NCBI RefSeq assembly: GCF_004087835.1
Contig: NZ_CP035119.1
Location: 2,356,001 to 2,420,000 of the forward strand
DNA: 64,000 nt
Source of the DNA: Halorussus pelagicus
GTDB lineage: Archaea > Halobacteriota > Halobacteria > Halobacteriales > Haladaptataceae
Direction: 5' to 3'
Part shown: positions 5,187 through 8,622 of the stretch, piece after piece
Layout of the letters: the number at the start of each line of letters is the position of its first letter
How positions within the stretch are numbered: position 1 is the first letter of the stretch
Translations under genes and position numbers: made by a program
Notes under the pieces: generated by a model
The model's database searches: none
The model's input: the letters and a program-made list of their open reading frames with translations, nothing else
Told to the model about the DNA's origin: nothing

Positions 5187-5617
5187 GTGACGTTAGCACC
5201 CAGATTCTTGCTGATTTCGCCCAGCTGGACGAATCGGATGTTCGAGAGTCGGTCCAGCGAGGTCCCGTCGAGAACCTCCCCGTCGTCGTCGTGGGGATTG
5301 CCGACGTAGACCCGGACGTTCTCGAAGGCTTCCCGACCGCGGTCTTGCTTGTAGGGAACCATCCCGCGGATGGTCCGCTTGAAGATCATGTCGGGGCGCT
5401 TGGGGTAGTACGGACCGCTGTCCGAACCCAGTTCGGCGCGCTTCTCGTATTTCGCCATCACGTCGTCTTCGCTTCCGGTGATGACCGCGTCCTCGGCGTT
5501 GACTACCGCGACACGCTCGCCATCGAGGGCGCGCTGTGCAACTTGGCTCGCCACGCGACCGAGGATACAGTCGCGGGCATCAACCACTACGTCTGCGTCG
5601 AATTCTGCGAGACTCAT
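5180..5617 (-). CDS. rpl13: 50S ribosomal protein L13
   Basis: Archaeal uL13, 145 aa. It has the family motifs [23 protein letters not shown] and [18 protein letters not shown]. It overlaps L18e by ATGA and S9 by 7 bases, supporting tight co-translation. Confidence 0.98.
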
Positions 5618-5967
5618 CGGATCACCCGTACGTTCGAGCCGTCGGGGTTCTGTTCGACTACCTGTTCGAGTTCGAGAGCCTCACCGTCCGCTTGCTGAAT
5701 CTTCGTCTCCGCGGTGGACGAAAAGTCCACGGCGGCGACGGTGACGGTCTTCTGCAGTGCTCCGCTTCCGAGAACCTTGCCGGGCACGACGACGGTCTCG
5801 TCTTCCTCGGCGTATCGCTCGATGCGACCGAGGTTGACTTCCGCGTAGGTGCTCCGGGGCTTCTCGAGGCGGTCTGCGACAGTACTCCACACGTCGGCGT
5901 CCGAGTCGCGGGACTCCGACTTCAGATCAGCGATGAGACTGGTGAGCCTCGGATTCGTCTTGCTCAT
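5614..5967 (-). CDS. rpl18e: 50S ribosomal protein L18e
   Basis: Archaeal/eukaryotic L18e, 117 aa, recognised by [14 protein letters not shown] at the N-terminus and [13 protein letters not shown] in the centre. A purine-rich Shine-Dalgarno-like GGAGG lies a few bases upstream of the ATG, close to the 3' end of the tRNA-Leu gene. Confidence 0.97.
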
Positions 5968-6000
5968 AATACTTCCTCCTGATGGGAATGAAAATTGCAG

Positions 6001-6085
6001 TGCAGGGAGCAGGATTTGAACCTGCGAACTCCTACGAGACAGCGCCCTGAACGCTGCGCCGTTGGCCTGACTTGGCTATCCCTGC
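6001..6085 (-). tRNA. tRNA-Leu (anticodon CAG)
   Basis: Class II tRNA, 85 nt, read on the minus strand. The acceptor stem GCAGGGA pairs with TCCCTGC, with discriminator A at 6001. The anticodon stem CAGCG/CGCTG closes a seven-base loop TTCAGGG with anticodon CAG. A long variable arm follows, then a T-arm with GGTTCAAATCC. No CCA is encoded. No TATA box is visible just upstream, so it is probably processed from the rpoD operon transcript. Confidence 0.97.
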
Positions 6086-6090
6086 ACGTA

Positions 6091-6232
6091 GAACACACGT
6101 GCAACCCTTCGCGGGCAACTGTGTGTTGTGGGTGGCCCTTCAAACCACTTTCGGTCTGCGTTCGGAATCGCACGCCCGCACGGCGATTGCACTGCTGGCC
6201 GAGACGGGCGAACGCCGAAATGTGGTTTGAAG
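6091..6232 (-). other. Structured RNA spacer between rpoD and tRNA-Leu
   Basis: The 161-bp spacer folds strongly. CTTCAAACCAC (6138-6148) pairs with GTGGTTTGAAG (6222-6232). After a one-base bulge, TTTCG (6149-6153) pairs with CGAAA (6216-6220). After a four-base bulge, GCGTTCG (6158-6164) pairs with CGAACGC (6209-6215), giving 23 pairs in all. Inside the loop AATCGC (6166-6171) pairs with GCGATT (6183-6188). A second hairpin is bounded by AACACAC (6091-6097) and GTGTGTT (6121-6127). It may be an operon-internal processed RNA or a tRNA-processing signal; the function is unknown. Confidence 0.5.
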
Positions 6233-6246
6233 TGCCCTGCATGGTT

Positions 6247-6996
6247 CTACAGTTGTACTGCTTGTTCGAGTTCGTCGGCGCGGTCGCTAATCGTCGCGGC
6301 CGCTTCCGTCACGAGCTCGTCGATGGTCAGCGACCCGTCGGTCTCGACGTGGAAGACGAACGCGTTGTCTACGTCGTGGACCTCGATCTCCTTGCCGGGA
6401 TACCGGTTCGTGAGGTCGTGGTCGAACTCCGCGGTCGAGACGAGTTCGCCGTCGTCTTCGATGACACCGCGCAGGATTCGGGTCTCTTCGGCCTCGTCGT
6501 ACTCGTCACGGTCGCCGACGACCTCCACGCGCTGGAGGTGTCGGTAGCCGACGGCCACGCCGCCCTGATGTTTGGCGTGGTCCTTCCCCGACGAGAGGAC
6601 GGCGTCGGCTTCGAGTTCGAGCCGTTGGTCGTCCTTCAAGTCGATGATGGGAACGTTGTCGTCGGCCGGTTGGACCATCTCGTCGGAACTCACGAGGTCG
6701 CCCGAGTAGGCGGTCCCCGGACCCGATACGTCGAGGCTGAGAGTGACGGTGTCGCCCTCCTCGAACTCGCCGAGCGGCGTGCTGAGGGGCACGAGACCGA
6801 GCCGTAGACCGATCTGCTCGTCGAACATCACCGACGAGTTCTCGACCATCCGGACCGTGTCGATAGAGAGTGTCGGCACGTCCGCGACGATGGCGCGGCG
6901 AATACCGTTGGCGAACGCCGGGGTCACGCCTCGAACGAGGAACCGAGACTGTCGGTCGCCGCGTTCGATGAACTCAACCTCGTACTCTTCTGTCAT
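6247..6996 (-). CDS. rpoD: DNA-directed RNA polymerase subunit D
   Basis: A 249-aa RpoD, the archaeal equivalent of bacterial alpha N-terminal domain and eukaryotic Rpb3, which with subunit L seeds polymerase assembly. The [14 protein letters not shown] motif and C-terminal FHVETDG segment are clear. It contains no cysteine, so it cannot carry the [4Fe-4S] cluster found in some archaeal D subunits. It lies 3 bases after rps11. Confidence 0.97.
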
Positions 6997-8431: not shown

Positions 8432-8448
8432 GGTTTGGATACTGAAAG

Positions 8449-8533
8449 CGTCGAGGGAGGGATTCGAACCCTCGAGGCTTGACGCCACAGAGTTAGCAAC
8501 CCTGCGCCGTGGGCCAGACTAGGCTACCTCGAC
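8449..8533 (-). tRNA. tRNA-Ser (anticodon GCT)
   Basis: Class II tRNA on the minus strand. Acceptor stem GTCGAGG pairs with CCTCGAC, discriminator G at 8449. The anticodon stem CAGGG/CTCTG encloses TTGCTAA with anticodon GCT, decoding AGC/AGU. A long variable arm and the T-loop GGTTCGAATCC follow. It stands at the head of the S13 operon, so the tRNA and mRNA share a primary transcript. Confidence 0.97.
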
Positions 8534-8612
8534 ACGCTTGCATTCACTGTCGCCCTCTCGGACTCGGGACCGGACGCCCCTACAGGTTTGCAACTCAATC
8601 TACTGGGCGGCC

Positions 8613-8622
8613 ATATATAAAT
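8613..8622 (-). promoter_or_regulatory. TATA box of the tRNA-Ser / ribosomal operon
   Basis: The minus strand reads ATTTATATAT, a near-perfect haloarchaeal TATA box, about 80 bases upstream of the tRNA-Ser 5' end. Start of transcription is expected near 8590. No better TATA box is seen between here and rps2, so it probably drives the whole operon. Confidence 0.75.

Follow-up and report, generated by a model that had tools for sequence, protein, structure and literature searches.

What could keep two genes coupled when a complete tRNA gene lies between them? The question is raised by a locus in the 64,000-nt stretch of Halorussus pelagicus DNA analysed here (contig NZ_CP035119.1, positions 2,356,001 to 2,420,000; hereafter the window, with positions counted from its first letter). 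On its minus strand, rpoD, encoding RNA polymerase subunit D (Rpo3), is followed by a spacer, tRNA-Leu(CAG) and a gene that we take, from its sequence, to be rpl18e. The initial annotation had drawn attention to a long imperfect hairpin in the spacer, without noticing that an open frame runs through the spacer and the tRNA. Our comparison of related loci suggests that the spacer is probably a translated bridge, an open reading frame (ORF) by which ribosomes leaving rpoD would pass the tRNA and reach rpl18e through termination-reinitiation. More tentatively, we propose a class-wide ORF selected only for being translated. As a ribosome ferry, it would link two ribosomal-protein/RNA-polymerase operons that a tRNA gene separates, and translation, by keeping the tRNA unfolded, would decide whether the sequence is read as tRNA or as codons.

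We gathered rpoD-tRNA spacers from 80 loci by protein search, from 30 by whole genomes (including the window's own) and from 74 by place. The named isolates with the best rpoD match belong to Halorussus, which places the window in that genus or a near relative. tRNA-Leu(CAG) lies downstream of rpoD in 182 of these 184 loci, the exceptions being L079, at a contig end, and L183, which has no tRNA. The number of distinct spacers in the 184 loci is 168, and 165 exceed 60 nt in length. The haloarchaeal group comprises 180 loci (L003-L182), 178 of which could be assessed for the bridge; the outgroup set comprises 24 loci, 12 assessable, and re-reading them with the rpoD frame gave the same answer. 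As a control for kinship, 65 clusters whose spacers have few 8-mers in common were each represented by one locus. A motif, ATCGAAAGnGGTTTGAAGGGGC, scores above 3 in 164 of the 165 unique haloarchaeal spacers longer than 60 nt (L082 lacks it), with a matrix derived from, and thus trained on, the same spacers. It serves below as a landmark.

The evidence for a bridge begins with its reading frame. The frame set by the GAA triplet of the motif is stop-free in 161 of 164 spacers, against 10 and 108 in the other two frames; in the frame with 10 open spacers, the count of 342 stops is raised by the TGA present in the frequent ATGA start and in TTTGAA. Alignments showed a constant ATG right behind rpoD. 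In all 160 loci with an ATG between the rpoD stop and the motif, the first one, in any frame, falls in the bridge frame, over 34 distinct ATG-to-motif lengths; the other four of the 164 loci have a GTG start that overlaps the rpoD stop as GTGA. The distance from motif to tRNA is 43 nt in 117 of 165 spacers, 70 nt in 26, including the window, and 58 nt in 12, and the lengths 43, 52, 55, 58, 70, 73 and 88 are all 1 mod 3, with a single 69 among 164 loci. Within the tRNA-Leu gene, the bridge frame is the only open frame in 160 of 160 loci, and it likewise runs through the leader before the tRNA and across the spacer between tRNA and rpl18e, which ranges from 14 to 352 nt in the same number of loci. 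Counted over four segments in 160 loci, the bridge frame holds 3, 0, 0 and 1 stops (4 in total), the other frames 170, 46, 160 and 57 (433) and 50, 10, 169 and 46 (275), and shuffles 72, 39, 94 and 74. Because relatives share history, we also counted one locus per cluster: before the motif and with the start codon excluded, the bridge frame has 0 stops against 32 and 28, and 65 of 65 loci are open against 39 and 46. One count of stops in the 5' part began at an ATG chosen in the open frame and is zero by construction; the unbiased counts are used here.

Both ends of the frame adjoin the flanking genes. In 155 of 164 loci, the bridge starts between -4 and +13, counted from where the rpoD stop ends. 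At the other end, 111 of 152 loci have an ATGA in which the bridge stop and the rpl18e start overlap; the stop lies at -5 in 33 and falls 2-7 nt before the rpl18e start in 4, and in the last 4, the frame continues in frame into rpl18e. In L075, L129, L165 and L182, where the frame continues in this way, the bridge could be an N-terminal extension of rpl18e. A Shine-Dalgarno (SD)-like motif precedes rpl18e in 141 of 160 loci. A locus was scored as bridged if a start lies at -4 to +25 of the rpoD stop and the frame stays open until 10 nt or less from rpl18e; this holds for 171 of 178 haloarchaeal loci. Six of the seven unbridged loci start further down (L067, L071, L139, L167, L169 and L176), and the seventh, L082, has a short spacer. 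By this rule, none of the 10 assessable outgroup loci with rpl18e further downstream is bridged (L184-L186, L236, L239-L241, L243, L250 and L252). The rpoD stop is followed immediately by the rpl18e start in L245 and L246, and at 5 nt in L183; since the two genes abut in these tRNA-less loci, we infer that coupling came first and that the bridge preserves it. In two more distant archaea, L250 and L252, the rpoD frame itself enters a tRNA-Leu with a TAA anticodon, with the predicted rpoD stop 39 and 38 nt past the tRNA start, respectively.

At the amino-acid level, no constraint is seen. Across 57 pairs of related spacers, substitutions are spread evenly over codon positions (239/218/238), and the ratio of synonymous to nonsynonymous changes, 198/497, is close to the 188/507 expected for random placement. 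Among the translations listed, the residues common to lineages are those of the promoter and the tRNA, and Pfam and NCBIfam gave no match for three bridge members at E values up to 1. Judged from these sequences, the reading frame is kept and the amino-acid sequence is not; being translated, rather than the product, appears to be what is kept, and coupling is the likely reason.

On this reading, ribosomes finishing rpoD on a read-through mRNA would reinitiate at the bridge start, open the hairpin and then translate across the tRNA sequence, which would keep the tRNA unfolded and uncut. Bridge translation would end at the ATGA, where SD-assisted reinitiation would start rpl18e. Transcripts from the internal promoter would carry no rpoD-derived ribosomes and would fold into tRNA. 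The hairpin would in turn keep ribosomes other than those arriving from rpoD away from the bridge start. Its 5' base sits at a median of 7 nt past the bridge ATG (quartiles 5 and 8, 157 loci) and is placed more tightly relative to that ATG (median absolute deviation 1) than to the rpoD stop (median absolute deviation 2), so that a closed hairpin and a ribosome at the start codon would be mutually exclusive. Both the protection of the tRNA and the gating by the hairpin are speculative.

Published work bears on this scheme. Overlapping genes tested in Haloferax volcanii showed strict termination-reinitiation coupling, and SD motifs served reinitiation and not de novo initiation (Huber et al. 2019, PMC6728339). 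The SD-like motif is common at rpl18e and rare at the bridge start, and the simplest interpretation would be that rpl18e is fed by ribosomes from rpoD, which the bridge brings past the tRNA. In Halobacterium, the ribosomal genes rps2, rps4, rps9, rps11, rps13, rpl13 and rpl18e are described as co-regulated in three regulatory groups; these seven genes belong to two consecutive operons that also hold three polymerase subunits, and they are split in seven more groups (PMC7394353). The two operons match those considered here.

Several observations weigh against a coupling bridge. An out-of-frame ORF that reaches rpl18e would stop at or near its start in any case: the exact overlap is partly automatic because the rpl18e start holds stops in both other frames, and the informative point is that the frame reaches the rpl18e start at all. 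The bridge start lacks an SD-like motif in 149 of 158 loci and has one in 9. Two relatives of the same order with short spacers, L184 and L186, are without a full bridge, and in L185 a frame from +19 crosses the tRNA and ends 17 nt before rpl18e. Four of 160 loci contain an in-frame stop, in L062, L112 and L123 before the first ATG and in L159 7 nt before rpl18e; these stops are harmless to the ORF, or nearly so. Part of the +1 stop count before the motif comes from the TGA within the frequent ATGA start. GC content by codon position is 0.69/0.71/0.74 in the bridge, against 0.72/0.36/0.83 in the window's rpoD, and indels are multiples of three in only 33 of 93 cases in the compared pairs, which we put down, without proof, to misalignment in pairs down to 60% identity. 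Finally, 11 of the genome's 46 tRNAs are spanned by some ATG-started ORF, so that only the conservation of the bridge is informative.

Other tRNA-associated features were seen in the same survey. Another tRNA of the same genome as the window, L215 (G000:C1:687444-687526), sits within an ATG-started sense ORF of 175 codons. Downstream of tRNA-Leu, the 3' end of the tRNA is duplicated, resembling an integration remnant and visible as RFKSCSLH-like repeats in the translation, in L016, L033, L038, L043, L054, L060, L063, L106, L137, L170 and L174, as well as in L184 and L185; in the bridged loci shown, the copy shares the bridge reading frame.

The same stop counts and first-ATG frame would fit equally well if the open frame suppressed polarity, with ribosomes trailing RNA polymerase to prevent premature termination and reinitiation at rpl18e a secondary matter. 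Work on H. volcanii is counted in favour of this explanation (PMC8576121), and hairpins can terminate transcription in that species, one of them at 59% when tested (PMC7237163). Against it, H. volcanii transcripts with long untranslated parts are reported to be stable (PMC6728339), and the SD-like motif and ATGA at rpl18e would be left unexplained. We regard polarity suppression as unlikely, and keep translational coupling as the preferred reading.

The hairpin was examined in its own right. That it is present, with pairing beyond chance, was upheld: the minus-strand spacer (6086-6252) folds at -73.5 kcal/mol (z -4.2) and, with the tRNA included, at -115.6 kcal/mol (z -5.2), with none of 200 dinucleotide shuffles as good in the first case and none of 200 shuffles in the second. 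A good fold was also obtained for the plus strand (6060-6330, z -4.8). When the regions upstream of the genome's 46 tRNA hits were compared, each as the best of three windows with 60 shuffles per window, the spacer had the lowest z (-4.99), followed by two hits that share an identical upstream sequence (-4.86 and -4.32; L221 and L222). These two (G000:C1:163869 and 1413426) are short tRNA hits whose upstream sequence resembles that of L187, and are perhaps rRNA-spacer tRNAs. In the predicted fold, the main stem joins 6236-6215 with 6154-6134 through 3 + 11 + 6 = 20 pairs, with an apical domain inside; the 11 + 5 + 7 arrangement first described is an alternative inner pairing (GCGTTCG/CGAACGC) of the same stem. 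The second hairpin nearer the tRNA was recovered as well, but the span of 6091-6232 assigned to the structure starts four bases too late in the main stem and treats the two hairpins as one. This leader hairpin is kept in Halorussus and partly in Haladaptatus and Halomicrococcus, where the motif-to-tRNA distance is 70 and not 43.

The inverted repeat is conserved between haloarchaeal lineages. Of 14 core positions in the promoter arm, at least 10 are paired in the predicted fold with the beginning of the spacer in 124 of 164 loci, and at most 5 in 18. Because GC-rich arms pair easily, each arm was compared with the arms of other loci in a double-centred permutation test that removes row and column effects. 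Across 108 distinct arms, own arms fit better than foreign ones when both stem parts are taken together (z -12.4), with -0.1 for a control in the leader. The outer part alone gave -4.7, and the promoter core and B recognition element (BRE) alone gave -1.9 and -1.6, neither significant; a control just upstream of the motif gave -5.8, as expected if those bases belong to the stem. Simpler tests were weak, with own pairing beating all 100 shuffles in 21 of 164 loci (median z -1.1) and the own arm best in 9 to 13 of 163. Among the 18 sequences of the genus, pairing holds in 93.9% of cells; changes on one side only are mainly A-U to G-U, and no two-sided compensatory change was found in 20 pairs. 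Preservation of the structure in relatives thus holds across haloarchaea, although two-sided changes are absent within the genus. Evidence that the pairing acts as RNA is weak, which counts against the bridge scheme: G-U and A-C mismatches do not differ much in number (106 and 76), the arms are better on the sense strand in 65 against 41 of 106 (p 0.011, uncorrected for relatedness), and whole-hairpin energy is better on that strand in only 63 of 163.

The initial annotation described the tRNA as having no promoter of its own, a view not supported by the 3' arm, which holds a BRE/TATA-like promoter motif in all but one of the spacers searched. The haloarchaeal BRE consensus is CGAAA, and in H. 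volcanii transcription starts adjoin 39 of 52 tRNA genes (PMC4983044). In our locus, TTTGAA occupies the expected place of a TATA box, and by eye several other tRNAs of the genome have similar elements at about the same place. The motif combining CGAAA and TTTGAA is therefore likely, from its sequence and position, to be the tRNA-Leu promoter. Elsewhere in the window, at 8448-8620, the tRNA-Ser gene 5' of rps13 has a TATA-like TTTATATATGG about 87 nt upstream, giving a leader longer than usual for tRNAs.

With a promoter in its 3' arm, the hairpin might mainly form the 3' end of the rpoD mRNA, as a terminator or 3' stabiliser, the open frame being secondary. The stem does end upstream of the predicted start of the tRNA transcript, its arms co-vary, and the fold z is -4.2 to -5.2. 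No stretch of T follows the stem, however, the sense strand is favoured in only the 63 of 163 hairpins noted above, and a frame kept on both sides of the tRNA would be left unexplained. We consider this role improbable, to about the same degree as polarity suppression.

The remaining explanations fare far worse. A functional small protein would account for the near-universal start and open frame in the loci examined, but is most improbable and was rejected as the main explanation, given the even codon positions, synonymous and nonsynonymous changes at expectation, non-coding composition and lack of a family match, with shared residues limited, in the translations listed, to those of the promoter and tRNA. 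Equally hard to sustain is an inverted repeat acting as DNA, in which a second, divergent copy of the promoter would drive antisense RNA into rpoD: in the window, the 5' arm has CCGAAATGTGGTTTGAAG as its complement, a sequence similar to the promoter, and G-U and A-C mismatches are similar in number (106 vs 76), but among the spacers listed no kept CGAAA or TTTGAA was seen by eye in this complement in other genera, and the arms slightly favour the sense strand (65 vs 41, with the p value given above). The original interpretations of the hairpin, a processing signal (for a splicing endonuclease or as an RNase P leader) or a small RNA in its own right, are very doubtful although the structure is conserved across haloarchaea: the tRNA transcript is predicted to start downstream of the main stem, which makes a role in tRNA processing unlikely; no Rfam match was obtained in 6086-6246 at E values up to 10; the loop is not conserved between lineages among the spacers listed; and the seven bulge-helix-bulge products given in the extract of a circular-RNA sequencing study of H. 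volcanii are tRNA introns, rRNA and the 5' untranslated region of HVO_1309 (PMC7714728).

Two specific candidates were also discarded. For an H/ACA or C/D guide RNA (sR-h45), there was no Rfam match and the name was not found in the literature; at the gathering score, Rfam matched only two tRNAs within the 64-kb window. For bulge-helix-bulge processing, no canonical motif was seen by eye, and the list in the PMC7714728 extract has no entry here.

Table 1. Features of the rpoD-rpl18e locus (window positions).
Feature	Position	Strand	Basis or remark
rpoD (RNA polymerase subunit D/Rpo3), upstream gene	6247-6996	minus	translation and relatives; stop codon 6247-6249
rpoD-tRNA spacer	6086-6246	minus	161 nt
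tRNA-Leu(CAG)	6000-6085	minus	whole tRNA within bridge ORF; sole stop-free frame is the bridge frame
Bridge ORF, 92 codons	5964-6242	minus	ORF listing and frame conservation
Bridge ORF start ATG; stop TGA	6242-6240; 5966-5964	minus	start 4 nt past the rpoD stop
Main imperfect hairpin, outer stem of 3+11+6 pairs and apical domain	6134-6236	minus	predicted fold
Main stem, 5' arm (bridge codons 3-10)	6215-6236	minus	predicted fold
Main stem, 3' arm, holding the putative promoter	6134-6154	minus	predicted fold and motif
BRE-like element CGAAA	6149-6153	minus	motif; haloarchaeal BRE consensus, extract of PMC4983044
TATA-like element TTTGAA	6139-6144	minus	motif; similar placement judged by eye against regions upstream of other tRNAs
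Second hairpin, in the leader 5' of tRNA-Leu	6092-6127	minus	predicted fold
SD-like GGAGG 5' of rpl18e, within the end of the bridge ORF	5975-5979	minus	
ATGA overlap of rpl18e start and bridge ORF stop	5964-5967	minus	
Downstream gene, presumably rpl18e	5614-5967	minus	

If the proposed coupling is correct, an ORF kept for its translation and not for its product would represent a new means of keeping operons intact. A sense ORF runs through a complete tRNA gene in most of the haloarchaea examined, and annotation that masks tRNAs and requires conserved proteins easily misses such frames; we found no published report of the bridge ORF among openly licensed PubMed Central papers. Coupling would also mean that a single stop codon in this 'non-coding' spacer should silence the next gene, and one would have to ask how RNase P is kept from cutting a tRNA embedded in an mRNA.

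The locus can be set beside three known systems. Its promoter resembles the haloarchaeal BRE/TATA promoters described by Babski et al. 2016 (PMC4983044) in having CGAAA and a TATA-like element, at a spacing that in most haloarchaea fits a start just before the tRNA; it differs in that the box is TTTGAA and in that the promoter forms an arm of an inverted repeat within an ORF. By its sequence marks, the locus resembles a termination-reinitiation pair of the haloarchaeal kind (PMC6728339): an ATGA overlap, an SD-like motif within the upstream ORF, a ribosomal-protein gene downstream, and a bridge start near or overlapping the upstream stop. Unlike the pairs described there, the bridge cannot be recognised as a protein gene, and both a promoter and an entire tRNA gene lie within it. 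The closest parallel for the tRNA is tRNA-Sec nested in the selB ORF of Alphaproteobacteria, called by its author the first such case in bacteria (Mukai 2021, PMC8124441), where a whole sense tRNA likewise lies inside an ORF that overlaps the start of the ORF downstream. There the tRNA belongs to the C-terminal extension of a real protein, whereas the archaeal bridge is a separate ORF, free of apparent protein-level constraint, with an internal promoter and found in many genera.
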